From positions 368,001 through 432,000 of the forward strand of contig AP031359.1 in assembly GCA_037833965.1 (NCBI GenBank): a DNA stretch of 64,000 bases, written 5' to 3'. The first letter of the stretch is position 1; each line of letters opens with the position of its first letter. The position numbers and the translations under genes are program-made. The stretch comes from Marchantia polymorpha subsp. ruderalis. Lineage: Eukaryota; Streptophyta; Marchantiopsida; Marchantiales; Marchantiaceae. This document shows, piece after piece, positions 23,401 to 61,800 of the stretch. The notes beneath the pieces are model-generated. The model did no database searches, was not told where the DNA came from, and was given only the letters and a program-made list of their open reading frames with translations.

Positions 23401-25369
23401 CATTCGTCAAACATCCCATCGCCCGGTAAAACACGATTAAGTAAGGCGATAGATGATTGAGCGTTCCTCCCCTCTCTTCTTGCGCATGTTGGCGCGTCAC
23501 CTTCCACAGAAGTCGTGCCCAATGCACCGGAGCTCCTGACAACACTAGCTCCACGAACTCTACCTGCCAACCATGCATGTAAGCGGTCTTGGTCGGCTGC
23601 AATATCTGCAGCAATGCTGTCGCGACATTTCTCCGCAATCGATCCTTGTAATCCCGAGTCCGGAAACCGTTCTTGGGATGTCTAGCCACCTTGAAGAGCT
23701 CATTGTAAGAGACTTCTTCCTCTTGGGACACTTTCACGCTGTCGGCCTCGAAGAGGAGATCCCCTTCCTCGCCGGCACACCTGCCCAACACCTGCGCCCA
23801 ATTGCCAATTTCCCATCTCTCTGGGTGTGGGCGAAATCCGCGAGAAGGCTTGTGTCTCTCTTGCAGATACTCGCGCACCATCTCCGGACACGTCCAATTC
23901 CACCCCCATAGGAGAAAATCGAGCTTCAACCTCAACAGCACATCTTGAAATGCGCGTAGACCGATCTGCGGCACCCTGAGTGGAGACACTCGCAGCTGGG
24001 GAACCTTCGACATTGCGTTGCCTGCACACACACAAACGTTCTCCCTTTCGCTCGCTCTCTCACAATCGCCACTGCGCGTCGGCCACTCAAGCACTGACTG
24101 CTCACTCTCTCTGCGCTCGTTCAAGATCGCTACTCCAATTCTTTCAAGGTCCGCCAAGATCCTTGCGCAACTCGTCTCCGCACTCTCTACTCTCACTGCA
24201 GGTCGCTCCGCCCTTGCGCGTAATCTTGGAACTGGAAATCGCAAAGTCAAGAATGAGAGAATGAGACTGGAGCGCAGTCTTTTCTTCTCCGATTTCAAGA
24301 ACGTCCAACGTTCTTACTGGTTGCAACGTACGCAGCCGGCTATACGGCTTAACGGTTCGCCCTTTGCATGCGCGAATTCACGTCTCCGCCTTGCGCGCAT
24401 TCGCATGCTTAAACGTTGAATTCTCCCGCCGCCGCCACCTTCCGGACTCGAGTCCGCTGCAGGGTATACGTCGGCCCTGTTGTCTTTTCCTAACCCGCCC
24501 TTCTCCGGAGGCGTGTTGCCGCTGGTGCGTTCATTATCCGTCGGCGCCTTGCTGGAGGCGCACATCCAGCCGGAGCGAATTACGCCGGCGCGCAGTCGTA
24601 CCGCCTATTTTGTCCTTTATGCCTCGTCCGTTGCTGCCAGCGCATATCCGTCAGCGCAACTCATGCCAGCGCATCCGACCGTCAGCGCCACGTCGGAGGC
24701 GTACATCCGACCGGCGCTTTCCTTCCATGAACAGCCGCCAAGGGCGCTTCCGACTCTGAGTTGGTTTCCTCCTGTGAGCGCGTGATTCCGCCGAAGGCGC
24801 ATCGCCGAGGGCGTACGGGAATCCTTTCCGGCTGTGAACCCTAGCGCGAACGGCGCATGTCCGGCTACGAGTTTTCCGACGCTCATAACTTCTCCATTCC
24901 TGATCCATCTCCGGCGCTCTTGGACTCGTTAGAACGAGCGTCCCGAGCTCTTTCTAATGCAACTTCAACCAACTGGATCTACCGTGTATCCCGATTGTTA
25001 TGAAGGTTTTCCCTTTCCGCGCTAGCGGCGCTTCGCCGAAGGCGCACTCATGGTCGGATGCCTTTAGAGGTCCGGGCCCTTCCCCTGACGTCTTTAGCAC
25101 AACCTCCTCCTGAGGTGTCTGCGCCGGAAGCGTAGCTTCCTTATACGCTAGAGGCGCGTGAGTAGAGATACCTCAAAAAGGAGCTTTTGCCGAAGGCGCC
25201 GAAGACGTTGGCGTTGGTACATCCGACTACGTGATTCTTTGTGCCCTCGTGACGATCTCATCAATCCACTCTATTTAGCGTACCCTTCTCTAGCTACAAA
25301 CACTGCTTTGGTACTAGTTTTCTGAAATTGTTTAAATTCTGCAAAAAAAACAAAAAGTGTGTTACCACA
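20500..25369 (-). repeat. 5' LTR (4870 bp) with internal ORF
   Basis: Partner of 9831-14700, same length and same ORF content, consistent with no or almost no divergence since insertion. Leader 25369-24014 and tail 21457-20500 contain no recognised gene beyond the motifs listed for the 3' copy. TSD CGTCC follows at 25370. Confidence 0.93.
21458..24013 (-). CDS. LTR-encoded protein, 5' LTR copy (851 aa from the conserved ATG)
   Basis: Same translation as the copy at 10789-13344: globular N-terminal domain, Pro/Arg/Thr-rich repeat linker, long coiled coil, basic tail. Frame open to 24298 (946 residues). Being upstream of gag in the sense direction, this copy would be the first cistron if transcription begins before it, or silent upstream sequence if the TATAAAG near 21425 is the promoter. 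The sequence alone does not decide which. Confidence 0.75.
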   Translation of the reverse strand: MSKVPQLRVSPLRVPQIGLRAFQDVLLRLKLDFLLWGWNWTCPEMVREYLQERHKPSRGFRPHPERWEIGNWAQVLGRCAGEEGDLLFEADSVKVSQEEEVSYNELFKVARHPKNGFRTRDYKDRLRRNVATALLQILQPTKTAYMHGWQVEFVELVLSGAPVHWARLLWKVTRQHAQEERGGTLNHLSPYLIVFYRAMGCLTNAEKTRFPQLSRSYPGRYSREAEVDTDPDEEPASTPPAPAPARAAEERRSERIPRKRKWDERPEDRQPEVPAAPTRGRPTPEPHSRPKQRARRMPTVTEETRRTPTRRNLTQEEIIAQVLGKTAETSAQKAPRPSGGDGRTDDRPTASRMTEGRQTEGRPTERRVEPDSRPEAGESLADEPTILRGSSSAEGTSGRTPPTSRPSGVKTRRVYPTPSRTTNGRPTASRTTESQPDSPTARRMGPTTSVRTPSADAPSARTPSAQIAPEGQAAEAGGARVTKVTTASTPSQTEDRAGTGAQAVGSPTALDILAGSGAAVAAEAAARHSSRESPRDSVATEILATEDDTSSEEQEEESVQKTPTGVLCEQIVPLLRYLDRKTSKYGSALKPQSYVETIRRRTRSKVARWASRCGVYVDRNTALRQHLAVTQKLYQALQQQKEDAATKSQAEAELIRAKIESELQEERRQNEVLAAELARQTRALEESQRARKEDEELLCNLQTECSDLRAQRADLEMQLAEVESSCRARGELAARVTRCLNGYTHWEVAAQERVTLREFELRAAALTEGDSRSRRRVARKLETFLSGARDTMAHLQSEVTAALRRLGLRSRSEDWQGRDSTRSSPARRRRSTGSAECSRVVWFRADAASGR

Positions 25370-43241: not shown

Positions 43242-43783
43242 TGATAACCAACAAATACCAAAATAGAGCATAATGATAAAGATTTGTTCCCATAGAGACA
43301 AATGCAACACCAAGGAGTCACAATTTGTCACTAATTAACATTCTATTGTAGAATTTTACTTCTTAGGTTCATAGATCGCATCCGCTCTAAAGGTGGTAGA
43401 CTTGGAGTTACTGTTGACGTTCTCTCCTCCGAAGGTTCTACGTCTTCCTCCATCAGGGCCTCATTCTGTACTCTTGATAGTTCTTCCTCTTCTGCCCAAA
43501 GATTCGGCTCTTCCCGCATATCTTTGTCTATCGTAGAGGCAGCTGACTTCGACATCGCCACACTACTCTCCAAAGATTTAGATACAACCATCTTACGATT
43601 TGCTCCCTTCTTCGGCCTAGCTCGTCGCTATGGCATCCTAATCTGCGTCCCCTATATCTCGGCCATCTGAGACTTTGGTCTTTGGCCTATACTATTGTCT
43701 GCGACCTTGCGTCTCTTCGTCGGTCTCCTACCTAACAGCTCCTGGTCGACACGACGTTAACCTGAATTGGCCCTCGTGTTGTC
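43242..43783 (-). repeat. Family Y LTR of a second element (Y2), left part
   Basis: Begins TGATAACCAACAAATACC as at 7069. After about 100 bp it jumps into the ORF linker (EEPNLWAEEEELSRVQNEAL, 43591-43343), so the LTR tail and the coiled-coil region are deleted. It is interrupted by the methyltransferase element at 43784 and continues at 56256. Alignment with 29790-29840 supports the empty site CCCTCGTGTTGTCTTTCGGG. Confidence 0.65.
43780..43783. repeat. Target-site duplication TGTC (left) of the methyltransferase element
   Basis: TGTC before TGTCATGTAG; the partner is 56252-56255. One further T may belong to either side, so the duplication could be 4 or 5 bases. Confidence 0.75.
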
Positions 43784-44077
43784 TGTCATGTAGTTACGAG
43801 TCGGCTCACGAAGTTCAGACACTTACTATATTTAGCCGTAAAGTTAGGGTTCCGGTCACGAGGGGTATAGAGTCGGGGACGGCTCGAAGAACGTCAGTTC
43901 TTCGAGTCGAGCCTGGAAGCGTCAGGGAGCCTAGAGCGACTTCCCCTTTTGCGTCGACCTGGATTCTCCGAGTGTGGAGTGGGTTGGGCTGGACTCATGT
44001 TTGTGACGGTGACGGTTTGTTGCCAGTAGGGTAATTGACCGACGGGAATTCCAGTGGGGAATCTCCCGTCTATTTCA
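43784..44077 (+). repeat. 5' LTR, B part only (R-U5 and proximal promoter)
   Basis: 294 bp, TGTCATGTAG to CTATTTCA. Matches 55840-56133 over its whole length. It lacks the 116-bp A part that opens the full LTR at 55722. It contains the TATA-like box and the probable transcript start. Confidence 0.85.
43866..43906 (+). promoter_or_regulatory. TATA-like box and 11-nt self-primer at the presumed RNA start
   Basis: TATAGAG begins at 43866. Thirty bases on, AGTTCTTCGAG (43896-43906) is the exact reverse complement of the 11 bases after the LTR. The spacing fits a TATA-driven start at 43896, placing the primer at the very 5' end of the RNA, as in Tf1. The sequence also sits in a local hairpin with GGCTCGAAGAAC just upstream. 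Confidence 0.65.
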
Positions 44078-44088
44078 CTCGAAGAACT
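44078..44088 (+). other. Self-complementary primer binding site
   Basis: CTCGAAGAACT directly abuts the LTR end CA at 44077 and pairs 11 of 11 with AGTTCTTCGAG at 43896-43906. No tRNA-type PBS (TGG...) is present at this position. Confidence 0.7.
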
Positions 44089-44525
44089 CTCGACGTTTTT
44101 GTGTGTAACCGTTTTACGTTCCGTTCTGCCTCTTTGTGTTTTCGTCGGGTGTTTCTCTCTTTCGTGGTTTGTTTATACCTTTGGGCAATTTCTGTATTTG
44201 AAAGTCTGAGGAAATCAGGGTTTTAAATCGAGAAATCTGTGCAGAAAGATTCTCAGATTTGATGTTCGGAAGTAGGGATTTTGAAGATTGCGTCGGAGTC
44301 TGAAAGATTCGTCGAAGGACAGTTGAAGATTATCGAACTACAGTTTGAGTGAGCATTAAGAGCCGGACAACGGATTGAAATTGAAAGAACGGGACGACGA
44401 TTTCTCTCGGTGCTGATCGCTGTGCGGTTTTTGTGATTCCTCGGTGTCTTCCTTGAGAAGGGAAGGCCGTGAAGTCGCGCAGAATTTGACTTGCTGAAGA
44501 AAACAGATTTCGAATCTTACATCGA

Positions 44526-44671
44526 ATGTTGCCGCGCACCCGGACGTCGCTCGCGTACAGCACGAGGGAGAGGGAGGAGGTCGAAGCTGCGTGCCCGGCT
44601 CAACCTGAGGGACAGACGCCGCTTGTGGCCGCAGCAATTCTGGGGTATCTTGTCTCGTACTTCTCTTCTCG
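44526..44671 (+). pseudogene. Candidate first exon of a captured host gene
   Basis: From ATG 44526 the frame reads MLPRTRTSLAYSTRERE, then an acidic stretch and a hydrophobic segment PLVAAAILGYLVSYFSS. It stops being open right at CTCG|GTGAAT, a plausible splice donor. The next recognised exon-like piece (45945) starts in phase 0 whereas this one ends in phase 2. Either an intermediate exon is missing or the donor is wrong. Product unrecognised. Confidence 0.3.
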
Positions 44672-45944
44672 GTGAATGGCGGTTTCGGGTTTTCGTTCGG
44701 TCCTAGGCCTCTATCGCTTCCGTTTCAATCCGAGAGTGTTTCAGTTCTGCGAAATTGCACTCTGAAGTGCTCTGCGGTTCTATCGAGCTGCTTGCCTGTT
44801 CCCATCTTGCATAGTGTGCAGTGTACTGCCCTAATTGCTGTACCACCCGATGTGCTCGGTGCAGTTCTTGCCGTCGAGCGAGACATGCTCTTGGGGCTGG
44901 TTGGGCTCCTTGGTGTGATTTGTTTGGCTTCTCGGGCCTCTGGGCAATCAATCGCCCTCTGAAGTCGTCTTGTGGGTGATAATTTGCTTTATGCCGCTGC
45001 GTTGAGTGAGGGCTTTTATTTTTCCCGAATTAAGCTTTCTCGCGCGCGTCGCGATCCTCTTTCCAGCTTTTGGCGTCATGGAAGGCAGTCCCCACGTTGG
45101 AGCTTTGGGAGCCTCTCTCTGACTGATTGGAAAAAATGTTCCTGCCTGCCCGACTTTGACCTGCTTTAGTGCTCATATTCACCACTGCAGTCCGCCGCAT
45201 GCCCTGTGTAATCCGCCTCCAAGATGGACTAAATTATTCTGTGCGAGCCGTAACCGATTCTGCTGTGCGAGCAGACTTGGCGCGTACGCCGCGAAGACGA
45301 GTGCCTTTACTGCCTTTCGATGTGGCCGCTTGTCTGTTAGCGAATAGCTTTTGTACTCCCGCAGCTCTTCTGCTCACGCTTCTTGCGATCCCCTACCAAC
45401 TTCACGTTGCGTCCTGCGCCAAGCTGTAATGAATTTCAGTGTTAGATTCTATGAGCAAAAACTCTGTTGAGGTTTCGATAATCGTAGAGAATCTGGACAT
45501 AGTGAGGCAGGGGAAACGCGCGGGCCTGTTCACTTTGCTGGTTTCTTATTTTGGCTGACCTGACGTCAGTCGAGGAGCCCACCCTCGTCCTTGTTTGTCC
45601 TAATTTGGCATCCGCTGCTCTCAGTCAATACTTTTAGCGCACATTGGAGCCACCTCGGGCTCGTTTTGCTGTGAGGGGGCCTGTTAGCAACCGCTGACGG
45701 AATCAGAGGAATGAGTGTTGGCCATGCAAGGGGTGGATTTTCCCTGTTTCTGAGTTGAGTTTGATCGCCCATTTGGTCTGTGCGGTCTGTACCCAGAGCT
45801 GGTTGGTGTCGGAGGGAAACAAAAGAGGATTCTGGAAACACTTACCTTGCCAGTCTTGTCGAGAAGGAGACTCCACACCCTCCCAGTATCTGACACAACC
45901 GGGGTACTTCAGAATCTGGCCTTGATGTTCTAGCGAGATTACAG

Positions 45945-46139
45945 GAGCAGCAACCAGTTGCGCCGGTTGTTGTCAAGAAGAAGGTGAACAGGTTGTACAG
46001 AAAGGAGTTGGCACTGTCCTTCCTGCTGCTGACAGCAGCTGCCAGGAGTTTGCTGTCGGCTCAAGGGGTTCACTTCTACTTTCTACTGTTTAAAGGGGTT
46101 TCGTTCCTGGTTGTCGGCCTCGATCTGATTGGCGAGCAA
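45945..46139 (+). pseudogene. Exon of an unidentified membrane-protein gene, captured in the element
   Basis: An open 195-bp block bounded by a good acceptor (GAGATTACAG) and donor (GTAAGC). It encodes [20 protein letters not shown] followed by two hydrophobic helices ([18 protein letters not shown] and [20 protein letters not shown]) and ends LIGEQ. The basic stretch before the helices and the exact phase 0/0 borders look like a real host exon. I cannot name the family. It lies inside the retrotransposon, between PBS and gag, so it is best read as transduced host sequence. No clear following exon was found. Confidence 0.45.
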
Positions 46140-47286
46140 GTAAGCTGAGGATTTATCAAGTCTGCGAATGTTAATAGCTGCCAACGGAGTGGATGCGTAA
46201 GTGGAAATGGTTAGAGTATAGCACAGATGGTACATTCACATTGTGTCTAGCCCAAACCAGGCGGTTGTTGATGGTGGCAAATTCGAGCCCACGTCAATCG
46301 ACAAGCAAGCAACCTCCGATTTGGCTTAGTCACTCTGGTTTGTAGTAAGCAATCTAAGGACTCCTTATGGCGAGGTGGCCGGCTTACTCCTAGGATCATG
46401 AAGACGGAGCGGCAATTTACATCACATGCATGCGGCTTCTCTTCAGTGTCCTTGATTCAGGTTTGAAGATTTTTGGGTGACAGGCAAAAGTAATCTACGT
46501 AAGTCTCATGAGATGCTCAAGATTCTGCAGATGGGAGCATCTTGAAGTGAAGGCTTGTACTTGAAGTGAGAGTATCAAGAGAAGCCAAGCCAGCCTATTT
46601 GAGTTGCTCTCCTATTTGATCATCGCCAGTTGGAAGTAGTCTAGGCCGCATCTCTGGCACCTCTGTGATTGATGCGCCTCCATTTCGAGGTTTACAGAGT
46701 GTCTTCTAATCTGGATCGAAGGCTGTGTCCTCAGCGAATGTACGGTTCTGTGCATCAGCGGGCTTTGACACTTTTACCTTTGTATTGGAGAAGAGAGCTG
46801 CAAAGATGTGGGCGCCTCTGACAAAGGAAGCAGCGGACATTTTGGGGAAAGGAATGTTTAGTGCCGTTGCTCTAAAATGACTACCTAGATGTTTGGTATA
46901 TCCATACCTATATCCACACGAACTTAGTTCCATAGCGTTTTATAGCTGATCCACAGAAAATTATGTGTGACTTAGTTTGGCATAGTAGCATGGTGGAATA
47001 GTCCAATAGCAGCAACCTCCGGTTGGAAGATCTGTTAGGCGAAGGTAGCCTATGCAGGTATTGTGATTACGTTCAGTTTTGATAAATACAGTAGTGCTGA
47101 GTTTACAGTAGAAAGTTTCAAATTCACCAGTTGATGTGAATTTGTTTATACATAGTTCTTTAAAACTATTTAAATCTTTTAATAGTTTTTATAGTTGAAT
47201 TGTTTCTAGTTTTCCCTACAGATTTAGTTTACAAATATTTGTGAACAGTCCTTGCACACAGCGGAGTTTTGACTTGTAAAGAGAAA

Positions 47287-47643
47287 ATGCCGCTTGGTGA
47301 GAAAGGGGGAGACAGTGTACCAGAAATTCAGACAGTGGAGGTCGTCAGTCGCGAGGAACGTGATCCGGAGCAGGAGTTGACAGTGCAGCCTCAAGTAGAA
47401 GGGAATCTGGTAAACCCTGTCGTGGTAGAAGAAAAAGATTCCGGGTTAGATTGGGACGAGGCACTAGCCGTGGAAAAACTTCTAGAGGAATCCGGCCTAG
47501 AGTACAGGGTATGTGAGGATGAGTTACTAGACCTTCCGCAGGATATTGCTGACCATTTGAGAGATGTTCAGTATGTTCAAGACTGTCTTTCAGAAGAAAT
47601 TCTTGTACTAGAGAAATTTCTCGATAATCTTCCAAAGGATTGA
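47287..47643 (+). CDS. Small acidic protein (118 aa), function unknown
   Basis: ATG at 47287 (MPLGEKGGDSVPEIQ); the frame is also open upstream to 47269. Strongly acidic, with a Val/Glu/Pro-rich first half and a helical leucine-rich second half (LDWDEALAVEKLLEESGLEY, 'LDLPQDIADHLRDVQYVQD', 'EEILVLEKFLDNLPKD'). No zinc finger, signal peptide or membrane segment. It lies about 0.9 kb before gag in the same direction. It could be an accessory ORF of the element, the last exon of the captured gene, or a chance ORF; its composition argues against chance. Confidence 0.4.
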   Translation: MPLGEKGGDSVPEIQTVEVVSREERDPEQELTVQPQVEGNLVNPVVVEEKDSGLDWDEALAVEKLLEESGLEYRVCEDELLDLPQDIADHLRDVQYVQDCLSEEILVLEKFLDNLPKD

Positions 47644-47820
47644 TAGCAACTACCTGTAGCGTTTAGACAAAAGGTACTGAAGGGATCGGGAGTTTGCACC
47701 CGGTCTCACTACCTGTAAACGTGATGTTTTGAAAGCATTGTAAATATATATATGACGTAGTCAATATATTGAGCTTTCAGTGTGTAGTGTGTTTGTTGAA
47801 GGGCAGTGTGACCCCTGTGT

Positions 47821-47862
47821 GAAGGAGAAGAAAAAGAAAGAAAGAAAAAAAAAAAAAAAAAA
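47821..47862 (+). repeat. Purine/poly(A) run
   Basis: GAAGGAGAAGAAAAAGAAAG followed by a run of about 17 A. It could be the remnant of a poly(A) tail of a captured transcript, or a simple-sequence expansion. Confidence 0.5.
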
Positions 47863-48536
47863 GTTTTCGACCAATTTTTGTTTGGATTTGGAGGAAGAGG
47901 GCACCATAGGCACTGGAGGCCCACGTAAATGGAGGGCGATGGAGATCGAATCGGGATCGCGAAGCGATGCGATGTCCCGTGTGTGTTGTCTTGTTTTGTG
48001 CTGTGTTTCCTTTAGACTGGAGAGTCGTTGCTAGCTGGTTGCTTGTGTTTGGATCCTCTCCAGTCTTGCTTCCTGGTGCGCGCCCGTGTAGGGGCGACGC
48101 TGATTTCCGGAGTAGTTTTACTCCTGTGTGCTGGCGATAGGGGGCTGGACTTGATCACCGGCCGGTCTATCTATGTTTCTCTCACGGTGAGACTGGAATG
48201 ATGACCAGTAGACCGTGAGAGTCTTCTTGCTGTGATGACAGGTTAGATTGCCCATACCCCTTAGCTAGTAGGGCTAGAGTAACTCAGTGCGGCACGACGT
48301 CAGGGGCGGATTGGGTTATTGGGTGGAGATCTGGCAGTGGTGCCAGTTGAGGTCTCGTCATCACGGAGCAGTCTAGTGGTCCTGTTGAGGACCGCGGTGG
48401 ATTTACGCGGAGCGGGTTGAGGTATAGGCTACCTTCACCTATTTTGCCAGTTGTTGCGGAGCACGACCAGAGTGTTGCAGACACAGAGTCTTTGGTGGTG
48501 ATATCGTCTAGTGTCCCCACCCCATTGATTTGGGAC

Positions 48537-51500
48537 ATGGACGGGATGTACGGGGCCGCGAAGGGCCCTCGACGTTACTCTGGTGCAGTGGGCACCATCG
48601 AGCTTGATGATTTTATTCAGGAGTTCGACACGTGGTGTGATATGCAGTTTCTGCGTAATCCCACGTTGTTTACACCCTTCTTTGCATGGAAGGGATTATT
48701 CCAGCATTTGGAGGGGCCTCCCATGGACGATTATCATGAGTTTGGGAGAGAGTATGCTGTAGAGATTGATGCATGGAGACGGCATTGGTCTCCGAACTAC
48801 TCATCCATTACCCAGGGTGGTGTGGGTACCAGTGGAGCTGCGAGTATCGGCATCACAGGAGGTAGTAGCATCAGCGAGGGTACCAGTGGAGCAGTTGGCG
48901 CAACTGGTACTAGTACCAGCAGCGGTACTGTTAGCATTGCCGGTGGCAGCACGAGGGGAGATACTAGTGGCGTACCTTCGTTTAGCCCCATTCCTGAGTT
49001 CTTCCAGAGATTGAGGAAGAATTATCAGGGGGTGAAAACGGAGAAGTTGAGGAGCCTCCAGGAGTTTGAGCGGAAGACTGGTGAGAGTCTTCGTGAGGCA
49101 TACACTCGTATGCGACGGCTCATCTCAGTTACTCACGGTGTGACTGAGGCACAGGCTGTCCAGTACTGGTATCGGATCCTTGACAGAGAGTTGCGGAGGA
49201 GAGTGCGTGATGCTACTCTCATGAGCGACTCATCACCCACATTAGCCCATGTGTTTGCTCTTTCTGAGAAGATTGAGCTTAACATGGTGGAGGAGAGGGT
49301 GGTGACGTCTACATTTGCGAGGGACACGACCACTACCTCGCGTATCCCACATAGCCCAGCACAGTCTCGCCCCATAAGTGGGAGTCGTGGAGGTCATACA
49401 CGACATCCTTCAGATCACAGAGAGCCTAGTGCGCGGCCACCACTGCCTTCATTTTCGGGTCAGCCACAGGGACCGTCATGTTGGACATGCGGAGGTAGCC
49501 ATATGAGGAAGGATTGTCCCCAGGAGCGAGAGGGACAAACTCCACAGGCTAGGCCACAGCCGGCACAGGTGACCTGTGATCATTGTCATCGACCGGGTCA
49601 CCCTCGAGAGCGTTGCTTTGACCTTCATCCTAAGTTGAGATCTGGAGGTAGAGGTCGTGGAGGTGATGCTCCGCGAGGTCGAGGTGGTCGAGGTGGCAGA
49701 GGTGGTAGAGGTGGTAGAGGTACCGGGGCCATTGAGCGTACCGCAGCGAGTGCTACTTCTGCCACAGAGAGCGCTATGGCTGCTCGGATTGAGCAGTTGG
49801 AGCAGAGGCTTGCTGATATGGCCGGTCTGGGGGCGAGCACTTCCACATCTTACGAAGGAGAGGATTTCTCCTATTTGGCCAGTGCAGCACAGGTTGAGGC
49901 ATCAGTTGCAGTGACCAGAGGTGGTGCTCGCACTTCAGAGCCACGTGGTGCGACTGTGGAGTTGGACCCTCAGAGGGGTGAGGGTGGACGTCAGTCTAGA
50001 CTTCCCCAGTCCTTTTTGTTGTCAGAGGTGGGTAGCAGTTCATCTATGAGACCTGCACCGCCTACTGACACTAGAGTGAGAACTGAGGTTCTTACATCAT
50101 CTGTTGGGGGCGCAGACGTGCCATCTAGTGCAGTGATGCGGATGGCCACTTCAGTCTTGCGATCTCCATTGTTCTCAGCCACGGAGTTGATAGACTCTGG
50201 TTTTGATTTGGCTCGAGTATTTCGGGTAGCAGCCACGTCGTGTGAGCGTGGGAGAGTCGCTGCTACTAGTGCCGAGATAAGTGAGGATACAGTTGAGGAC
50301 CCATCCTCAACATCTACATTGTTCGAGGAGACGACTTGGCAGGCCGCAGCGGCGAGGATGGAGTCCTTACCAGCTCGCCCAGCCATTGATCGCGAGAGTA
50401 TTGTCCCTGGTGTATGTATGGTGGACAACCGAAATGGTCTATTTCGGTTAGTGAGTTCTACTGGACAGGTGTATGTCCCAGCCAGAGTTTTGTTGGATTC
50501 TGGTGCACAGCCCTTGATGTTGGGCAAGGTTGCATGCATTAGTTTGGGCATTCGGAGGTCCGAGTTGGAACCTTGCCCATTCCAGATCCAGACATCCCTT
50601 GGTGGTGCCAGCAATAGGTCTTACTTTATGACCAGGGAGAGCATAGCGGTGCAGTTGAGGCATGATCACCCTCATGATAGCTCGCAGTTTGGAGTTCGTG
50701 CTGTGGTTACATCAGCAGAGTCATATGATGTGCTTGTTGGTGGAGTGGTGTTATACCCGATGGGCTTCCGGATGGACTATTGGACGGAGACTGCCGCATA
50801 TCGTCCTGGTTGGCAGTCCGGAGATGGACGTTTGAGCGAGCTGCCAGTGAGATTTATTTCTCGGGATCGACCTCTTGGATCTTCGTCAGCGGTCTTGGCA
50901 TCTGTAGCAGGTTTTAGCGGAGTGCTTACCTGGCCCGGTGAGTTGTTGGCGGGGAACATGTCTGCCGACGATACCTCACTCTACGAGGATGTGGAGGAGG
51001 TTGTGAGTTTCACAGCGGCGGTGACTTCACCCTTAGATGTTCCACTGTGGAGTTCGTGCCAGGCACTACAGTTGGAAGCTGATAGGTTGGTAAAAAAGGC
51101 TTGGAGTGAAGCCTCGTTACCAGCAGAGCCAGAGAGGGCTTCAGATAATCGGCTAGTTAGTGGTTCTAGCGCATTGTCTCCATTGGTTACTACACCTATT
51201 GCATGGGAGTATTCCTCAGAGGGCGTTTGTTTGCTGGATCTTTTTGGTGGAATCAGCACAGGTTTGGCTGCAGTGTTGCAGTCAGGTATTCTCGTACGGA
51301 GATACTTATATGTGGAGAAGGACGAGACTGCACGTCGAGTCTCTTCACGACATGTTGCACAGTTGATGCGGCGTTTTCCTTCGTTGTTGCCGCGATCAGC
51401 TGTCCGAGGATTCCAGAAGGCGTTGCCTTCAGACATTTCGTTGCTGGGGGCGCCAGACCTTGACCGCGTTGACCATATTGATATGGTGATTGCAGGCTGG

Positions 51501-52421
51501 CCATGTCAGGGACACACACGCGCTGGACATGGGACAGGGTTGCATGATCCCAGATCTCGGATGTTTTGGGAGATGATGCGAGTGTTACGTCATCTCCAAG
51601 TGCAGCAGACACGTTCTCCAGCATACATTCTGGAGAACGTACCATTGTTGGGTGACACTCGGGCCCAGTTGATGGCGAGTGTCCATCAAGTCCGAGCATG
51701 GATTGGATCAGCAGTACTGTTGGATGCTGCGAGGGTTGGTTCACGTGCTCATCGTGCACGTTTGTGGTGGACCAACCTTGTACCACGAGAGATATTGCGT
51801 CATGCGTATGATTCTGTGTATCGTGATCCTACCCTCACCGTTGACAGGATCTTGGATGTCTCTCGAAACTCTCAGGTGGTGAGAGTGGCGGATAGGTCAC
51901 CCATGGCGTTGGTGAACCGCGTAGGTCAGCCTCGGATGGCTTTACCTACATTTGTCAGTTATCCGGCATCACATGCATATCGTGATGGGGGACCTGGACT
52001 ACTGTGGGACAGTACCCTACATCAGTTGGTGGAGCCCAACGCTGATGAGAGAGAGCGTGCGATGGGGTTTCTTACTGGTGTGACCCTAAATTCTTCAGTT
52101 TCAGAGGCGTCGCGTCGTCAGGTTTTGGGTCAGGCTATGGACCTGAACTGCTTGACGTGGATTGTGAGCTTGGGTTTGGCCGAGCAACGCCGTTTGCGCG
52201 CAGATTTGGTGGTTGTTACACCACTTATTAGCTCATTGCCTACCGAGACAGTAGTGGCAATGGCTGGGGGCGACAGGCGAGATATTCGGCATCCTTGGAG
52301 TTTATGGGACGTGACGAAAGGACTTGCCAGAGTTGCAGCCCATGCAGTTGGAGAGGATTCTCAGGTGGAGGTGGCTACGAAGGAGGGTACGGAGAACCCT
52401 TCTTTGCAGTGTGTAGCGTAG
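48537..52421 (+). CDS. Gag - aspartic protease - DNMT3-like cytosine methyltransferase fusion (1294 aa)
   Basis: One uninterrupted ORF from ATG 48537 (frame open to 48417). Gag: 'ELDDFIQEFDTWCDMQF' and 'LREAYTRMRRLISVTHGV', separated by a Gly/Ser/Thr-rich insert (about 90-145). Zinc knuckles C315-C327 (CX2CX3HX4C, CWTCGGSHMRKDC) and C347-C360 (CX2CX4HX4C), then an RGG-rich box. Protease: VLLDSGA, Asp 654. Methyltransferase about 895-1225 with all key motifs in linear order: I LLDLFGGISTGL (899), IV WPCQGHTRAG with catalytic Cys 990, VI LENV (Glu 1033), VIII AHRARLWW (1071-1078), X around Gly 1198. The unpermuted order excludes DRM; 'AHRARxxW' and motif I resemble DNMT3. No BAH, PWWP or ADD domain. 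Expected to methylate cytosine in DNA, perhaps the element's own cDNA. It lies upstream of the stop, hence expressed at Gag level. Confidence 0.92.
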   Translation: MDGMYGAAKGPRRYSGAVGTIELDDFIQEFDTWCDMQFLRNPTLFTPFFAWKGLFQHLEGPPMDDYHEFGREYAVEIDAWRRHWSPNYSSITQGGVGTSGAASIGITGGSSISEGTSGAVGATGTSTSSGTVSIAGGSTRGDTSGVPSFSPIPEFFQRLRKNYQGVKTEKLRSLQEFERKTGESLREAYTRMRRLISVTHGVTEAQAVQYWYRILDRELRRRVRDATLMSDSSPTLAHVFALSEKIELNMVEERVVTSTFARDTTTTSRIPHSPAQSRPISGSRGGHTRHPSDHREPSARPPLPSFSGQPQGPSCWTCGGSHMRKDCPQEREGQTPQARPQPAQVTCDHCHRPGHPRERCFDLHPKLRSGGRGRGGDAPRGRGGRGGRGGRGGRGTGAIERTAASATSATESAMAARIEQLEQRLADMAGLGASTSTSYEGEDFSYLASAAQVEASVAVTRGGARTSEPRGATVELDPQRGEGGRQSRLPQSFLLSEVGSSSSMRPAPPTDTRVRTEVLTSSVGGADVPSSAVMRMATSVLRSPLFSATELIDSGFDLARVFRVAATSCERGRVAATSAEISEDTVEDPSSTSTLFEETTWQAAAARMESLPARPAIDRESIVPGVCMVDNRNGLFRLVSSTGQVYVPARVLLDSGAQPLMLGKVACISLGIRRSELEPCPFQIQTSLGGASNRSYFMTRESIAVQLRHDHPHDSSQFGVRAVVTSAESYDVLVGGVVLYPMGFRMDYWTETAAYRPGWQSGDGRLSELPVRFISRDRPLGSSSAVLASVAGFSGVLTWPGELLAGNMSADDTSLYEDVEEVVSFTAAVTSPLDVPLWSSCQALQLEADRLVKKAWSEASLPAEPERASDNRLVSGSSALSPLVTTPIAWEYSSEGVCLLDLFGGISTGLAAVLQSGILVRRYLYVEKDETARRVSSRHVAQLMRRFPSLLPRSAVRGFQKALPSDISLLGAPDLDRVDHIDMVIAGWPCQGHTRAGHGTGLHDPRSRMFWEMMRVLRHLQVQQTRSPAYILENVPLLGDTRAQLMASVHQVRAWIGSAVLLDAARVGSRAHRARLWWTNLVPREILRHAYDSVYRDPTLTVDRILDVSRNSQVVRVADRSPMALVNRVGQPRMALPTFVSYPASHAYRDGGPGLLWDSTLHQLVEPNADERERAMGFLTGVTLNSSVSEASRRQVLGQAMDLNCLTWIVSLGLAEQRRLRADLVVVTPLISSLPTETVVAMAGGDRRDIRHPWSLWDVTKGLARVAAHAVGEDSQVEVATKEGTENPSLQCVA

Positions 52422-52427
52422 CAACCA
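52419..52427 (+). promoter_or_regulatory. UAG CAA CCA readthrough context between methyltransferase and RT
   Basis: ...GTA GCG UAG CAA CCA TTG ACA, with the same frame open on both sides. It fits UAG-CAR-YYA exactly. Readthrough would give a polyprotein of about 2,340 residues. Confidence 0.8.
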
Positions 52428-55400
52428 TTGACAGTGTCGCCTCCCTCTAGTGTGCCTATGGAGGAGGAGTGGGAGCCATTGATTGGTTCCCAGATCATAG
52501 GAGGAGAGAGGCGACGATTGACACAATTCCTACGAGACTATAGGAGTTGTTTTGCTTTCAGTATGAAGGAGTTGGGTGCGTTGATTGGACCCGGTATACG
52601 GATAGAATTGGCTAGTGATACGCCAATCTTCCGTCGTCCTTATCGGTACAGTGAGATGGAGAGAGATTTGATTCGGAGTAGGACGTTGGACCTACTAGAG
52701 GCTGGACTAGTGGAGTTATCGCATGGTGAGTATGCGTCAGCCACTGTCATGCCGGTGAAGAAGGATGTACATGGCAACTACACGGATAGGCGCATGTGTG
52801 GAGACTACCGTCCTATCAATCGGCAGACGAAGTCCGATAAGTATGCCATGCCTACACCTGAGGAGATCTTCGATGTGGTGGGACATGCGAGGATTTTTAG
52901 TACTTTGGATCTTCGGGCAGGATACCATCAGTTGCCAATTCGAGAGGAGGACAAAACCAAGACAGCGTTTTGGGGCGTCAACTCCCACGGCAAGGATTGT
53001 TTGTATCAGTGGCGATTCTTACCCTTTGGGTTGAAGAATGCACCTGCCGAGTTTCAGAGGGTTATGGACAGAATCCTGGCGGGGCTGGATTTTGTCAGAT
53101 GTTACATTGATGATATCTTGGTGTTTAGTGACACTGTGGAGCAACACCAGATACACTTGCAGATTGTGTTTGAGCGATTGAGGGCTCATGGTTTGAGGTT
53201 ACATCCTGGGAAGTGTAAGTTCTTCCAGGAGAAGGTTGAGTACTTGGGTCATGTGATATACCCAGGTGGTTTAGGAGTTCAGCAAGCAAAGGTGGAGGCT
53301 ATTGCACGCATCCCTCGTCCCACGGATGTGAGTAGAGTTCGTGCATTTATGGGTTTAGCGAACTACTACCGGAGGTATGTGAAGGGGTTCAGTGCTATAG
53401 CCAAGCCTTTGAACCAGTTGCTGAAGTCAGATCAGGAGTGGCAATGGGGAGATGAGCAGGAGAGAGCTTTTGTTGAGCTCAAGGCCAGGTTGGTGGCCGC
53501 TCCCATCTTGAGGAGACCTATCAGAGGTCGCCCATACCAATTGCACACTGATTGGAGTATGTTGGGACTTGGAGCGGTGTTGACGCAGCGTGATGATGAG
53601 GGCAAGGAGTTTGTGGTTGCGTACGCTAGTCGTTCGAACAATGCAGCGGAGTCGCGGTATAGTTCGTACGAGGGAGAGTGCTTGGCAGCGGTGTGGGCTG
53701 TGGCGCACTTCAGGTGTTACTTGTTTGGTACACAGTTCACCCTTGTTACTGATCATCAACCGCTCAAGTGGTTGATGGAGTCCGACAAGCTTACAGGGAA
53801 GCTTGCACGGTGGGCTCTCATCTTACAGGAGTACGACTTTCAGGTAGTGCATAGACCTGGAGTTGCGAACCTAGATGCCGATGGTTTGAGTCGAAACCCA
53901 TGCACTAGCCAGGATGATGACACTGGAGCTAGATGGCATGGTGAGGTTGACGAGGAGATGGTGCCTGGTTGGCATGCATCTGCCTTCATGTGTTGGTTAC
54001 GTGGGAACTCCAGCAGAGAGGATCATGTGACATCTTACTCTAGTCAGAGAGTACATGGTCGATCTCCAGATCCTGAGGTTGAGGATGGTGGTGTGGATCA
54101 GCGTGATGTACACGATGATGCATTGGTGTTGGAGTTCCTACGGACCAGCATGGTGCCAGGCACAGTGGGTGCCAAGGAGCGAGATCGTGTTCTCCAACGG
54201 GCCAAGAGGTACCGATTGGAGGGATCACATGTTCTCCGAGTATGGGAGGACGGTAGGGTACGAGTAGTACCACATCCAGCCCAGAGAGCACGCATTGTGA
54301 GGCATGCTCATGAGGAGTTGGGACATTTTGGAGTGAAGCGTACATACAGCTTACTCCTTGGTCAGTATTGGTGGCGTGGTATGCATACTCAGGTACAGCA
54401 GTTGGTATCACGTTGCATGGTTTGTGATCGAGTGAGGGCATCATTCAATGCCCCGACACCAGTGTTACATCCATTACCCATCATGGGGTTGGCTTACCGT
54501 TGGAGTTTGGACTTTGCTGGACCACTACCTTTGACTGTACGACATCATCGGTATGTGTTGGTGATGGTGGAGCATTTCTCCAAGTGGATTGAGTTGGTGG
54601 CATTACCTGACAAAGCAAGTGAGGGAGTAGCGTATGCTTTTCTTGACAGAGTGCTTAGTCACTATGGTGCACCAGCTGAGGTGTTGACCGATCAGGGAAC
54701 GGAGTTTCAGGGTGAGTTTCAGGTCTTGTGCGACAAGGCACTGATTGATCATCGGACCACGTCGCGAGATCATCCAGAGGCGGATGGTTTAGCTGAACGT
54801 GTTGTACAGACGGTGAAGAGGGCGTTGCGCAAGTATGGCCTGCAGAAAGGTCATCTTGGGGACTGGGATATCCAGTTACCGTGGTTGGCCATGGGATATC
54901 GGTTCAGTCGGCAGGCATCCTTGGCTTCCTTCTCACCATATTTTCTATTGTACGGCCGAGATCCAGACTTGCCAACATCGATTCGTCGTGAGTCTAGCGA
55001 GGTGGTGAACCTTGATGACCCGAATATGTGGGTGAGAGTATGTTCTCAACGTGCAGAGCTCTTTCGAAGAGTTATGCCTGCAGCGTTTGAGAATCTTGCG
55101 ATTGCTCAACATAGAGATACGTTGCGGTATGCAACCATTCGGGGAGGAGGTTATCGACCATCAATTCGTAGATTCCATGTGGGAGACTACGTCTATCTAC
55201 AGCAGACTGCACCGACGACATTGGATGTGACGGCGGGACGCACCATCTTGCGGGTGCGGGAGGTGTTACCTTCTGGAGTTCTCCTGTTGGAGGGTCGTGA
55301 CGGCGTTGTTTGGAAGGATCATGTGCGCAATTGTGCGCCATGCCACCTCCCAAACGTAGATGGCACTATGGACCCAAGCTTAGCGATAGTACGTGCTAGC

Positions 55401-55550
55401 TTGAGGTGCATGCTGTGTGGGTCGGCTGGTCAGGCGGCCCGTATGTTGGTGTGTGATAGGTGCTCTAAGGGATGGCACATGTCGTGCCTAACTCCGCCTA
55501 TCGATGTTATTCCGGCTGGACGATGGGTTTGTCCTCGATGTACTTCATAG
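52422..55550 (+). CDS. Pol: RT, RNase H, integrase and C-terminal PHD finger
   Basis: In frame with ORF1 behind UAG. Residues are counted from codon 52428; the first ATG is 52458. RT: 'RMCGDYRPINRQT', 'FLPFGLKNAPAEFQRVM' and catalytic YIDD at 226-229. RNase H: 'YQLHTDWSMLGLGAVLTQ', 'YEGECLAAVWAV' and 'TDHQPLKWL'. Integrase: zinc finger (HEELGHFGVKRTY ... CMVCDRVRA), then D695 (SLDFAGPLP), D755 (LTDQGTEFQ), E790 (GLAERVVQT), with 34 residues between the last two, one fewer than usual. After an SH3-like region the protein ends in a complete C4HC3 PHD finger at 994-1039 (CMLCGSAG, LVCDRCSKGWHMSC, WVCPRC). No chromodomain. Known PHD fingers read histone H3 tails, so this may steer integration. 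Intact. Confidence 0.93.
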   Translation, partial: QPLTVSPPSSVPMEEEWEPLIGSQIIGGERRRLTQFLRDYRSCFAFSMKELGALIGPGIRIELASDTPIFRRPYRYSEMERDLIRSRTLDLLEAGLVELSHGEYASATVMPVKKDVHGNYTDRRMCGDYRPINRQTKSDKYAMPTPEEIFDVVGHARIFSTLDLRAGYHQLPIREEDKTKTAFWGVNSHGKDCLYQWRFLPFGLKNAPAEFQRVMDRILAGLDFVRCYIDDILVFSDTVEQHQIHLQIVFERLRAHGLRLHPGKCKFFQEKVEYLGHVIYPGGLGVQQAKVEAIARIPRPTDVSRVRAFMGLANYYRRYVKGFSAIAKPLNQLLKSDQEWQWGDEQERAFVELKARLVAAPILRRPIRGRPYQLHTDWSMLGLGAVLTQRDDEGKEFVVAYASRSNNAAESRYSSYEGECLAAVWAVAHFRCYLFGTQFTLVTDHQPLKWLMESDKLTGKLARWALILQEYDFQVVHRPGVANLDADGLSRNPCTSQDDDTGARWHGEVDEEMVPGWHASAFMCWLRGNSSREDHVTSYSSQRVHGRSPDPEVEDGGVDQRDVHDDALVLEFLRTSMVPGTVGAKERDRVLQRAKRYRLEGSHVLRVWEDGRVRVVPHPAQRARIVRHAHEELGHFGVKRTYSLLLGQYWWRGMHTQVQQLVSRCMVCDRVRASFNAPTPVLHPLPIMGLAYRWSLDFAGPLPLTVRHHRYVLVMVEHFSKWIELVALPDKASEGVAYAFLDRVLSHYGAPAEVLTDQGTEFQGEFQVLCDKALIDHRTTSRDHPEADGLAERVVQTVKRALRKYGLQKGHLGDWDIQLPWLAMGYRFSRQASLASFSPYFLLYGRDPDLPTSIRRESSEVVNLDDPNMWVRVCSQRAELFRRVMPAAFENLAIAQHRDTLRYATIRGGGYRPSIRRFHVGDYVYLQQTAPTTLDVTAGRTILRVREVLPSGVLLLEGRDGVVWKDHVRNCAPCHLPNVDGTMDPSLAIVRASLRCMLCGSAGQAARMLVCDRCSKGWHMSCLTPPIDVIPAGRWVCPRCTS

Positions 55551-55709
55551 GGGTAGATGACTTGATCTTCACATGTTATGAATTGCAGATAGGCGACTAA
55601 CGATGGGGAGACATAGCACCCGGCCTACTGGTTTGTGCACCCACGAAGGTGTATAGCATGTAGTTGGAGATGGGGCTACTTGGGAGTCAGAGGGACCTGA
55701 CCGCCAGCT

Positions 55710-55720
55710 AGGGGGGCGAG
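55710..55720 (+). other. Polypurine tract of the methyltransferase element
   Basis: AGGGGGGCGAG just before T|TGTGACATT, the start of the full LTR. This fixes the U3 boundary at 55722 and hence the A-B order of the LTR. 55551-55709 is untranslated and shows nothing else. Confidence 0.8.
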
Positions 55721-55721
55721 T

Positions 55722-56133
55722 TGTGACATTTTAGTGTGTACTCTCTCGCACCTTATATGTGTGTATGTGTGTGCGTATGTGTATGTGAGTAGCATGTCAG
55801 CGATGTAGAGTGTATGGCGATATGTATTCGCACGACAGCTGTCATGTAGTTACGAGTCGGCTCACGAAGTTCAGACACTTACTATATTTAGCCGTAAAGT
55901 TAGGGTTCCGGTCACGAGGGGTATAGAGTCGGGGACGGCTCGAAGAACGTCAATTCTTCGAGTCGAGCCTGGAAGCGTCAGGGAGCCTAGAGCGACTTCC
56001 CCTTTTGCGTCGACCTGGATTCTCCGAGTGTGGAGTGGGTTGGGCTGGACTCATGTTTGTGACGGTGACGGTTTGTTGCCAGTAGGGTAATTGACCGACG
56101 GGAATTCCAGTGGGGAATCTCCCGTCTATTTCA
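55722..56133 (+). repeat. Full-length LTR (412 bp, parts A and B)
   Basis: TGTGACATTTTAG ... CTATTTCA. A (55722-55837) has GT-rich repeats and CCTTATATGTG; B (55840-56133) matches the 5' LTR. A and B meet at ACGACAGCTGTCAT, which contains the perfect palindrome GACAGCTGTC and looks like an LTR-LTR joint (CA-GC-TG). Confidence 0.85.
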
Positions 56134-56135
56134 GT

Positions 56136-56251
56136 TGTGACATTTTAGTGTGTACTCTCTCGCACCTTATATGTGTGTATGTGTGTGCGTATGTGTATGT
56201 GAGTAGCATGTCAGCGATGTAGAGTGTATGGCGATATGTATTCGCACGACA
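56136..56251 (+). repeat. Extra copy of LTR part A at the 3' end
   Basis: 116 bp matching 55722-55837, linked to B by the two bases GT. CA-GT-TG is what end-to-end joined cDNA (a two-LTR junction) would give, because GT also precedes the LTR after the PPT. It ends GCACGACA next to TSD TGTC. Confidence 0.85.
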
Positions 56252-56255
56252 TGTC
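56252..56255. repeat. Target-site duplication TGTC (right)
   Basis: TGTC followed by TTTCGGGAAAGC, the continuation of the Y2 LTR. Confidence 0.75.
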
Positions 56256-58828: not shown

Positions 58829-61800
58829 TGTGGTAACCCACTTTTTGTTTTTGTGTGGAATTTAAAACATTTTTGGAAAACAGTACCGCAGCAGCAGTGT
58901 AAATAGGTAATCGGTACATTTAAATAGAGTGAAAATGGATAATCGTGGATCTCGTATGATCTTGTAGAATCCAAGAGTTGGGCGCAATGTCCGGAATAGG
59001 CGCCCGGCTCAAACGATCGATTCTGAAGGAAATCTCCTTCGGCGCAAGGCGTAGAATTTGCCTTCGGCGCTAGGGAAATCCCTCGGAACTTATTCAATTC
59101 ATAACGCCTTGACTTAGTTAGGGTCCTGTTAGAAAGAACTAGACGTGTTCGTTCTAACAAGTCCAAGAACGCTTGAAACGGATGAGGGATCAAGGAGTTA
59201 TGATTTTCGGAAGATATTGAGAGGGAACGCCTTCGGCGGAAGGGCTAGGTCGACGGACGAGCTGCCTTCGGCTCAGCCGCCTTCGGCCCTAGGTCAACGC
59301 CTTCGGGGGTGAACTTCTTTGTACGGGCGCCTTTGGCGCCTGCGCATCAAGACTAGGTCAACGCCTTCGGGGCAAGCAACTCCGTACGGTCCGCCTTCGG
59401 CCCAACGCCTTTGGCGGTACGACATGTGCGCCTTCGGCGGAACGGAACTCATGCGGCAAAAGCGCCTTCGGGAGGACAAGAGGGATCGACAGAAAGGACA
59501 AGACCACTTGGCTGCGGTCAACGCTTTCGGCACAGTCGCCTTCGGCTCTGCGCCTTCGGCGATGCACCTACGTCGACGGACGTCTTCAAGAAGTTTGCCT
59601 TCGGCGCTGGATAAAACAGAGATGCGAGTCAGCCAGAGGCGAAAGATTCCATCGCTGCGCCTTCGGCGCTGCGCGAACAAGGCCGCGGCGAAGTACGATG
59701 GTAGAAATCAAATTCAATTTTCGAGCGTGTGAGTCTGCGCAACGGCGGAGCGTGAAGTCAAGCGTGCGAGAGGAGGGCTATTACGCCTCCAAGTCGGCGC
59801 AGCCATCAAGTGAGTCGACCTCCACGACCAAGTGTCAAAGATGAAATCTTGTGAGCCGAAGGCGGGCGACTCATTCTTGAATTTGCGATTTCAATTTCTC
59901 GTGAGAGCTGCGCGCGCACGCATCCTGGCAGAGAGAAATCAGAGAAGGCGACGCGCAGAAACTTGCAAGTTGGCAGAGAGAGAATTGAGTGCGCGACCGT
60001 GGGAATTGAGTGAGAGCGGAGCTCACAGAGGGATCGCATCCGCGGGCAAGAAGCTTGGGCATAGCAGAGGAGAGTTTGCGAAGAGCAATTTCAAGAACGC
60101 GATGTCGAAAGCAACACAGCTGCGGATGATTCCGCTGAAGCTTTGGCAGATCGGGTTACGCGCTTTCCAGCACCAGCTGACTGCGGTGAAGCTCGATTTC
60201 CTCCCGTGGGGGTGGAATTACGTGTGTCAGAACATGGTGCGCGAGTGGCAGAAGGAGAGAGACCAACCTACGCGCGGGTTTCGACCGCACGTAGAGCGAT
60301 GGGCCATTGAGGACTGGGAACAGGTACTGGGAAGATCTGCGGAAGAGGACGGACATCTCCTATTCCAAAGTGAGAGCATCAAGGTCACGAAGGAGGAGGA
60401 GATTTCCTTCGCGGCCCTTTTCAAGAGCAGCAAGTCCAACAAGAACGGGTACAAGACCCGGGACTACAAGGATTGCTATCGCAGAAATGTCGCGGTAGCA
60501 CTTCTCCAACTTTTGCAGCCCCATAGGACCACCTACATCACTTCTTGGCAGGTGTCATCGTGGAGCTGGCGTTGATCGGAGCTCCAATTCACTGGACGTG
60601 TATCTTATGGAAGATAACGCGGTAGCATGCGTTTGAGGAGAAGGGAGGGTCGATCAATCATCTCTCCCCCTTCTTGATCAATTTCTATAGATCGATGGGT
60701 TGTCTGACCGCGACCGAGCGAGTTCAGTTTCCATTGCTGTCGCGCAGCAATCCCGGGCGATATGTGAAGGACGTCGAGGTTGACACCAACGAGGAAGAAA
60801 CTCCTGCCTCCACGCCACTAGCCCAACCAAGAGCGGAAGGAGAATCACTCGCAGCGCGAGTGCCAAGGAAGAGGAGATGGAAGAAAGAAGTAGAGAAGGG
60901 CCAACATCGCGATTCGGCTGCTCTCAAACGGAAGCGGCCACTGCACGAGGTCTGCAGTCGGCCGAAGCTGAAAGCGCGCAAGCTTGTGTTGCCTGCAAGT
61001 AGCACAGAGACAGGGCGTGCCGACGGAGCAAAGGAGTCACCATCCTCGGAGGAGGATGGGAACAAGCGGACGGCAGAGGGGTCAGCGGACCTCTCTACGC
61101 CGAAGGCACGGACGCCTTCGGCGGAAGCAAGACGGCCTTCGGGCCAGGAGAGACGACACGCGGCACCGACGAACATGCCGGTGACGGATAGGTGTTCTGC
61201 GCGAATACTGTTCGCGGACTCGCCTTCAGGGCTGGAGCCTTCGGCTCGAGCGCCCTCGGCGCAGCGGAGGAAGGGAAAGGAGCCGGCGGAAATTGCACCT
61301 TCGGCTCAAGGGCCTTCGGCCCAAGGAACTTCGGGCGAGCCGCCTTCGTCTCAACCGCCTTCGGCGATACGCCTTTGGCGATGGACCTATCGAAGGACCT
61401 ATCGAAGGAGCAAGATGACAAGCAGAAGGAGGAGGCATGTGTGCATTCTGCACAGTCGCCTTCGGCACAAGCACCTTTAGCGGTGGACGCCTTCGGCGAT
61501 GATGAATTGGTAGTAACAGATCGGGCGGGCGGTGCGAACTTGTCAAAACCGGGATCCCCCACCGCCTTAGACATTTTGGCCGGGAGCAGTGCGGCTGCAG
61601 CAGCAGTAGACGCAGACGCTACGCAGCCCAACTCGCGAGAATCGCAAGGGAGTTTAATGGCGACCGAAATCCTCAATTCGGAGGATGACGGAGAAGGAGA
61701 ATAGGGATCGGACGAGGAGGAGGAGCAATCGGTGGCAGGCACGCCGACGGCGGCACTATGCGAGCAGGTGGTACCTTTGCTGAGGTATCTCGATCACAAG

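Follow-up and report, generated by a model that had tools for sequence, protein, structure and literature searches.

Retrotransposons that carry a DNMT3 are a kind known since 2018. De Mendoza et al. (2018; PMC5890265) described KnitGypsy-Dnmt3 of Klebsormidium nitens, in which a DNMT3-related enzyme is part of a gypsy polyprotein, and SymbioDIRS-Dnmt3 of dinoflagellates, which methylated CG in yeast. A survey from 2025 mentions DNMT3 on retrotransposons of streptophytes and of dinoflagellates (PMC12344493), and according to a review, land plants such as tracheophytes lack transposons that encode a methylase (PMC6338049). For Marchantia, Schmid et al. (2018; PMC5784723) list five methyltransferases, and the accessible text of that paper does not use the word DNMT. 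Here, we analyse a stretch of 64,000 nucleotides of Marchantia polymorpha subsp. ruderalis (contig AP031359.1, positions 368,001 to 432,000; the window), in which positions 43784-56251 hold a Ty3/gypsy-type element. We consider it likely that this is a liverwort retrotransposon of that type encoding its own DNMT3-type cytosine methyltransferase, a reading that includes the dosage, self-methylation and single capture proposed below.

The closest published case is KnitGypsy-Dnmt3, which the element resembles in its gypsy domain set, in the DNMT3-related enzyme within a polyprotein, in its split repeats (the DIRS-like repeats of the Fig. 4 legend in PMC5890265 correspond to the arrangement A-coding-B-A-B of the window) and in the purifying selection on the enzyme (Ka/Ks < 0.2 there). 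It differs in that the host of KnitGypsy-Dnmt3 is an alga and its enzyme lies in the Pol open reading frame (ORF); the two are likened by description, not by sequence. With SymbioDIRS-Dnmt3, it shares a DNMT3-type enzyme on a retrotransposon and A-coding-B-A-B repeats, but the latter is a DIRS element with a tyrosine recombinase, whereas the window element has a DDE integrase and target duplications. The main text of PMC5890265 is without the terms readthrough, self-priming, PHD and Marchantia and uses "primer" once, for PCR. Our search of the open-licence literature, preprints excluded, found no report of a DNMT-carrying retrotransposon in Marchantia. Nor did we find, in the accessible literature, a land-plant host, a Gag-side enzyme followed by a conserved readthrough stop, two architectures, or relatives in Closterium, Sphagnum and chlorophytes.

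The methyltransferase and its reading frames

The coding part of the element comprises two ORFs in the same frame, with these features:

48537-52421, + strand: ORF1 with Gag (by position), zinc knuckles, protease and methyltransferase; first ATG at 48537, stop at 52419-52421
49479-49616, + strand: two zinc knuckles, of which the first is a residue short of CX2CX4HX4C
50397-50816, + strand: retropepsin-like protease region with LLDSGA, from the motif and from relatives
51204-52199, + strand: C5-cytosine methyltransferase, DNMT3-type, from PF00145, profile and trees
52419-52427, + strand: TAG CAA CCA, putative leaky stop in CARYYA context, in frame, called from the sequence
52422-55550, + strand: ORF2 with reverse transcriptase (RT), RNase H, integrase (H2C2, rve) and PHD, from Pfam
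52698-53837, + strand: RT and RNase H, from Pfam
54228-54827, + strand: integrase, from Pfam
55407-55541, + strand: C-terminal PHD finger, PF00628 at 1.3e-10

The methyltransferase domain matches Pfam PF00145 (DNA_methylase) with E = 8e-10. The first-pass annotation had proposed that a DNMT3-like methyltransferase at 51220-52200 forms part of a retrotransposon polyprotein, following the protease and preceding a leaky stop and RT. The domain map bears out this location, with the domain itself at 51204-52199. Motifs I, IV (Cys), VI (EN), VIII and X are all present in canonical order, as had been claimed, and the catalytic Cys is indeed residue 990 when numbered from the ATG at 48537. The claim that Gag, CCHC knuckles, protease and methyltransferase share one ORF holds as far as the single frame goes. 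The frame is open from the stop at 48348, and the listed ORF 48417-52421, which begins at the TTG at 48417, is uninterrupted. One knuckle is canonical (CDHCHRPGHPRERC), and the other is not, being one residue short (CWTCGGSHMRKDC). Pfam applied to the window's own ORF1 matched neither protease nor Gag, only the methyltransferase. Gag is thus named by its position and the knuckles. The protease is assigned because of the LLDSGA motif at residue 692 and because the region of the relatives P0018 and P0136 that aligns to it is Pfam Asp_protease_2.

ORF2 matches the Ty3 Gag-Pol structure 7q5b (7e-100), and its PHD finger matches CHD4, PHF12 and KDM5B in the PDB. Between the two ORFs, the leaky stop noted in the first-pass annotation is present as a sequence, an in-frame TAG CAA CCA after the methyltransferase and before RT, RNase H, integrase and PHD. 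UAG followed by CARYYA is a readthrough context of the tobacco mosaic virus type. Were the TAG an ordinary stop, the second ORF would depend on reinitiation or a separate mRNA. The common frame speaks against this, as do two further points. TAG CAA CYA (CCA or CTA) is kept in 35/35 scorable copies of the 37 described below, which fall into two subfamilies, despite differing flanking codons (CVA*QPLT vs EVS*QPVT). In addition, the relative P0136 (type II, see below) has the window's domain order in one uninterrupted protein. We therefore regard two separately translated ORFs as improbable. A stem starting 11 nt 3' of the stop has z = -5.1, with 0/200 shuffles as low. A comparison with other copies for compensatory changes lent this stem no support: among 18 distinct rows, 17 pairs vary, of which 11 are broken in one row or more, and none of these 17 pairs is compensated on both sides.

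In the host genome searched (241 Mb, nine contigs), the methyltransferase has at least 120 matches. A stop-free frame of at least 1348 aa is open in 26 of the 120 listed copies. Of the 150 ORF2 ends listed, about 40 fall within open frames of 1042-1045 aa. For the selection analysis, we used 37 copies, a non-random sample of the 30 best methyltransferase matches and seven others. Pooled over these copies, the ratio of nonsynonymous to synonymous polymorphism (pN/pS) stands at 0.185 in the methyltransferase, compared with 0.183 in the protease part and 0.123 in the RT part; the corresponding median pairwise dN/dS values are 0.16, 0.14 and 0.10. Given the number of genomic matches and this purifying selection, the methyltransferase is not in the element by chance.

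The domain could still have lost its activity and be retained for binding nucleic acids or as a structural component of Gag-Pol. This would fit the motif IV of many type I relatives (see below), which is ECQ instead of PCQ in 66/88 (55 WECQ, 11 FECQ), and it would fit KnitGypsy-Dnmt3, which was inactive in yeast, a result that its authors deemed inconclusive (PMC5890265). The conservation among the 37 copies speaks against it. The catalytic Cys is present in all 37, the motif VI signature is ENV in 36 and ENI in one, motif VIII is found in 36 (the remaining copy has a stop), and motif X is intact in 35, with I for M in one and the motif missing in another. Loss of Cys 990 or ENV in all other copies, named beforehand as evidence against the first-pass reading, is thus not what the copies show. 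We think a domain without methylating activity quite unlikely.

Affinity of the enzyme and its relatives

Among named proteins, those closest to the searched 455-residue query are from Marchantia polymorpha (best 94% identity). The first two protein searches yielded 153 proteins, which we classified by domain order; most of those without a species named here are metagenome proteins.

Type I: In 88/153 proteins, RT precedes the methyltransferase, which lies between RNase H and integrase. The named sources are Haematococcus lacustris and Chlamydomonas eustigma. These polyproteins share with the window element the enzyme clade, the RT lineage and the PHD after the integrase, and they differ in the site of the enzyme and in motif IV, which is mostly ECQ.

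Type II: In 41/153 proteins, the order is protease-methyltransferase or methyltransferase-RT, with the enzyme between protease and RT as in the window. The named sources are Marchantia, Sphagnum fallax and Closterium.

The remaining 24/153 were unplaced, and no Klebsormidium-named protein was among the matches listed in the protein searches. A PHD follows the integrase in 69 of the 78 type I proteins that reach the integrase, and also in type II P0136 and in the window. By eye, the type I proteins P0032 (EPFNGTG...TSPWF), P0035 and P0039 have an extra methyltransferase-like stretch after the PHD, and a crude motif search found an extra C-terminal methyltransferase-like motif in 8/46 type I proteins with long tails.

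With the single sequence as query, the top match in the PDB is DNMT3A (6e-9). A profile built from 16 relatives (16 rows) gave 57 PDB matches at E <= 0.1, among them DNMT3A (4e-23), 4onj (7.5e-12), DRM2 (3.5e-8), HaeIII (3e-8), HhaI (4e-8) and a DNMT2-type enzyme (5e-6); no DNMT1 or CMT was among the 57. The entry 4onj has the PDB title "DNA methyltransferase", and we take it to be tobacco DRM. By this ranking, the window enzyme is closer to DNMT3 than to DNMT1, CMT, DNMT2 or HhaI. The first-pass annotation had called the motif signatures a mixed set, which is not supported: motif IV of the host DNMT3 locus is GGFPCQDLS (GGSPCNNLS in the host DRM), and PCQ at this position is thus not unusual for plants. 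Of the host loci met in the reference search, L001 and L088 resemble canonical-order DNMT3, and L002 resembles rearranged DRM.

Two methyltransferase trees were computed. The first contains 47 retrotransposon rows, of which 22 are type I (every fourth full-length domain) and 25 are type II (near copies from Marchantia omitted, four Closterium added). Its references are 10 animal DNMT3 taken from a list of 120, two loci of the liverwort host (a DNMT3 and a DRM) and 13/18 IMG/VR loci. In this tree, type I forms a clade with support 100/97 and type II one with 97/95. The reduced tree contains 20 of the 47 retrotransposon rows, 12 DNMT3/DRM rows and 13 IMG/VR Dcm-like rows, with HhaI and DNMT2 as outgroup and no DNMT1/CMT row. 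Here, the 20 retrotransposon rows form a single clade (100/100), which is the sister of DNMT3 plus DRM and outside both, and these 32 rows unite at 100/99 to the exclusion of the Dcm-like rows. The approximately unbiased (AU) test rejects placing type II together with the host DNMT3 (p = 5e-7). The enzyme does not nest among host or animal DNMT3/DRM. Hence, of the label "DNMT3-like", the DNMT3-type affinity is supported by profile and trees, and membership in host DNMT3 proper is not: by sequence, the window enzyme appears DNMT3-type but stands outside it.

Several results weigh against this placement. The phage profile phrog_116 (PHROG) matches the window enzyme at 3.5e-16, and the bit scores with the retrotransposon profile overlap between the IMG/VR Dcm rows (37-57) and the DNMT3/DRM rows (37-69). 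Type II alone reaches only 85/57 in the reduced tree. At the 0.05 level, the AU test does not reject uniting all retrotransposon enzymes with the Dcm rows (p = 0.06, log-likelihood difference 17.8), so that the separation from bacterial-type sequences, for which a phylogeny had been called, appears in the tree but is not confirmed by this test. These matches would suit a bacterial or phage origin of the methyltransferase. The best PDB profile match and the tree position are both with DNMT3, however, and the Dcm rows are favoured in the comparison because they were found through the motifs of the query itself. A phage or bacterial affinity is thus disfavoured, and we assign such an origin a low probability.

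For RT, RNase H and integrase (RT-RH-IN), a tree of 28 rows (19 of type I and the 9 type II rows that were usable) splits by architecture with 97/98 and 96/85, the same split as in the methyltransferase tree; its single outgroup row is distant. The parallel splits, the shared PHD and the separation from the sampled DNMT3 make a single capture followed by relocation the simplest explanation. Related DNMT3-like enzymes might instead have been acquired separately by type I and type II. The differing position in the polyprotein agrees with separate events, and the Klebsormidium case was called an independent acquisition in that lineage (PMC5890265). Against this, the retrotransposon enzymes form a single clade, separate from the sampled DNMT3/DRM (ten animal, one liverwort DNMT3, one liverwort DRM), the RT-RH-IN trees split alike with the two types close kin relative to one other gypsy, and both types carry the PHD after the integrase. 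Separate captures appear rather unlikely to us.

Ends, priming and class of the element

Outside the ORFs, the element has these features:

43780-43783, no strand: left target-site duplication TGTC, the same 4 bases as after the right end
43784-44077, + strand: repeat A, left copy, TGTC...TTTCA, 294 nt, 1/294 different from the right copy
43896-43906, + strand: AGTTCTTCGAG, candidate RNA 5' end and self-primer, inside repeat A
44078-44088, + strand: CTCGAAGAACT, at the primer-binding-site (PBS) position directly 3' of A
44089-48347, + strand: long 5' leader, containing a 118-aa ORF at 47287
55710-55719, + strand: AGGGGGGCGA, polypurine-tract candidate, inferred, directly before B
55720-55837, + strand: repeat B, inner copy, 118/118 identical to the outer copy
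55834-55843, no strand: palindromic B/A junction GACA-GC-TGTC, from the sequence
55840-56133, + strand: repeat A, right copy, 1/294 different from the left copy
56134-56251, + strand: repeat B, outer copy, ending ...GACA, present in 11/13 fetched right ends
56252-56255, no strand: right target-site duplication TGTC, matching the left

The left end is thus A and the right end B-GC-A-B, and the direct repeats (A+B) differ at 1/412 positions. These near-identical repeats make the insertion young-looking. Searching the genome with repeat A listed 41 matches, one of which is short. The 30 fetched A copies are 17 left ends, 0 of which have B upstream, and 13 right ends, all of which have TCGCACGACAGC directly before TGTC. 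The outer B stands at one constant joint in 11 of the 13; in one of these, a base next to the joint is changed. The 4-bp duplications are exact in 8/9 position-matched left/right pairs and have one mismatch in the ninth. The right-end A repeats L018 and L034 are without outer B and continue into PBS-like sequence, which suggests tandem elements. The right ends L031 and L032 lie on one contig at a distance of 16.5 kb and have the flank CGGCCGCATGTTGA in common, which suggests a segmental duplication that includes the element end.

The order of protease, RT, RNase H and integrase, the RT of Ty3 type and the short, integrase-type target duplication of 4 bp are those of Ty3/gypsy elements. Two identical complete long terminal repeats (LTRs) at both ends were not found; the ends are A...B-GC-A-B, the split direct repeats of DIRS (11/13 fetched right ends). 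DIRS elements lack a target duplication, and this element has one; moreover, the Pfam matches of the two long ORFs include no tyrosine recombinase, with an rve integrase instead. The A-B-A-B ends may derive from a 2-LTR circle or from DIRS-type end regeneration; the constant A/B joint (11/11) and the left ends with B upstream (0/17) are compatible with either.

AGTTCTTCGAG is the exact reverse complement of CTCGAAGAACT, and the + strand of the window has a single occurrence of either 11-mer. CTCGAAGAACT adjoins A in 16/17 left copies, and AGTTCTTCGAG is intact in 26/30 fetched A copies; its stretch is also able to form a hairpin within A. We predict that reverse transcription is self-primed in the Tf1 manner. 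Priming from the element's own RNA is known for Tf1/Sushi and Tcn1 (PMC6317226), and in the window it is predicted from the 11-nt complement; the accessible text of that source attributes self-priming to Tf1/Sushi, Tcn1 and TAR and does not do so for DNMT elements. Over the initial 200 bases of the leader, only 5/17 left ends, the window's own included, match the window's sequence. The leader's 118-aa ORF (47287-47643) is acidic and followed by TGA TAG CAA CTA. The first-pass annotation did not mention the phylogenetic spread, the PHD finger, the self-primer-like PBS or the A-coding-B-A-B ends. An Rfam scan of the element, a tRNA scan of the window and a scan of viral contigs with the element's RT found no RNA family, no tRNA and no relative, respectively.

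Elsewhere in the window, a second gypsy element has two identical 4870-base LTRs (9831-14700 and 20500-25369, 0 mismatches), each of which contains a 946-aa ORF (10789-13629 and 21458-24298). Several of the window's remaining ORFs (e.g., 8856-9872 and 59832-60575) look, by eye, like parts of this LTR-borne protein.

Proposed role and significance

In the mechanism that we propose, most ribosomes would halt at the UAG, and the methyltransferase would be made in Gag amounts. Such a Gag-level dose is expected because the domain precedes the leaky stop, whereas in type I it lies inside Pol. The enzyme would enter the particle with Gag, a minority of ribosomes would read through to produce Pol, and the PHD finger would direct the integrase to chromatin. 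The most likely role of the enzyme would be to methylate the element's own DNA (cDNA or a fresh insert), probably at CG, because the related SymbioDIRS-Dnmt3 had this activity in yeast. The enzyme would have been captured once from a DNMT3-like lineage by the ancestor of a gypsy lineage found across the green plants, and would afterwards have relocated in the polyprotein, with the RNase H-integrase site in the chlorophyte-named type and the protease-RT site in the streptophyte-named type. Our most far-reaching proposal is tentative, possible but short of probable: one capture in a gypsy lineage from chlorophytes to liverworts with retention of the enzyme to this day, a shift in streptophytes from a low dose on the Pol side to a high dose on the Gag side of a leaky stop, a writer joined to a PHD reader so that new copies are pre-methylated, and circularly permuted DNA joined via GACA-GC-TGTC by the DDE integrase.

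Some features of the copies sit less well with a maintained, self-methylating enzyme. The methyltransferase is under weaker constraint than RT, 6/37 copies have a stop inside it, and CpG depletion is mild, with observed/expected ratios of 0.66-0.83 in the coding parts vs 0.84-1.00 in four other stretches of the window. Instead of the element's own cDNA, the enzyme might target the host genome, other elements or RNA, for example to damp competitors or limit the element's own harm. RNA methylation and a damping role were discussed for related elements by de Mendoza et al. (PMC5890265), and with at least 26 full-length open ORF1 frames, off-target action is possible. The pN/pS of the methyltransferase, which is close to that of the protease, and its Gag-side place favour a role in the replication cycle, and an off-element target is in our view doubtful.

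The moss and green-algal relatives suggest that the partnership of enzyme and element is old and maintained. If the single capture is true, the association goes back much further than an acquisition in a single alga. The statement in PMC6338049 needs qualifying, as bryophytes do have methylase-encoding transposons. Retrotransposons are usually targets of cytosine methylation, and carrying a maintained methyltransferase reverses that relation. As the family is copy-rich, recent-looking and open-framed in a genus with a standard laboratory plant, the question of whether such an element methylates its own cDNA is directly testable.

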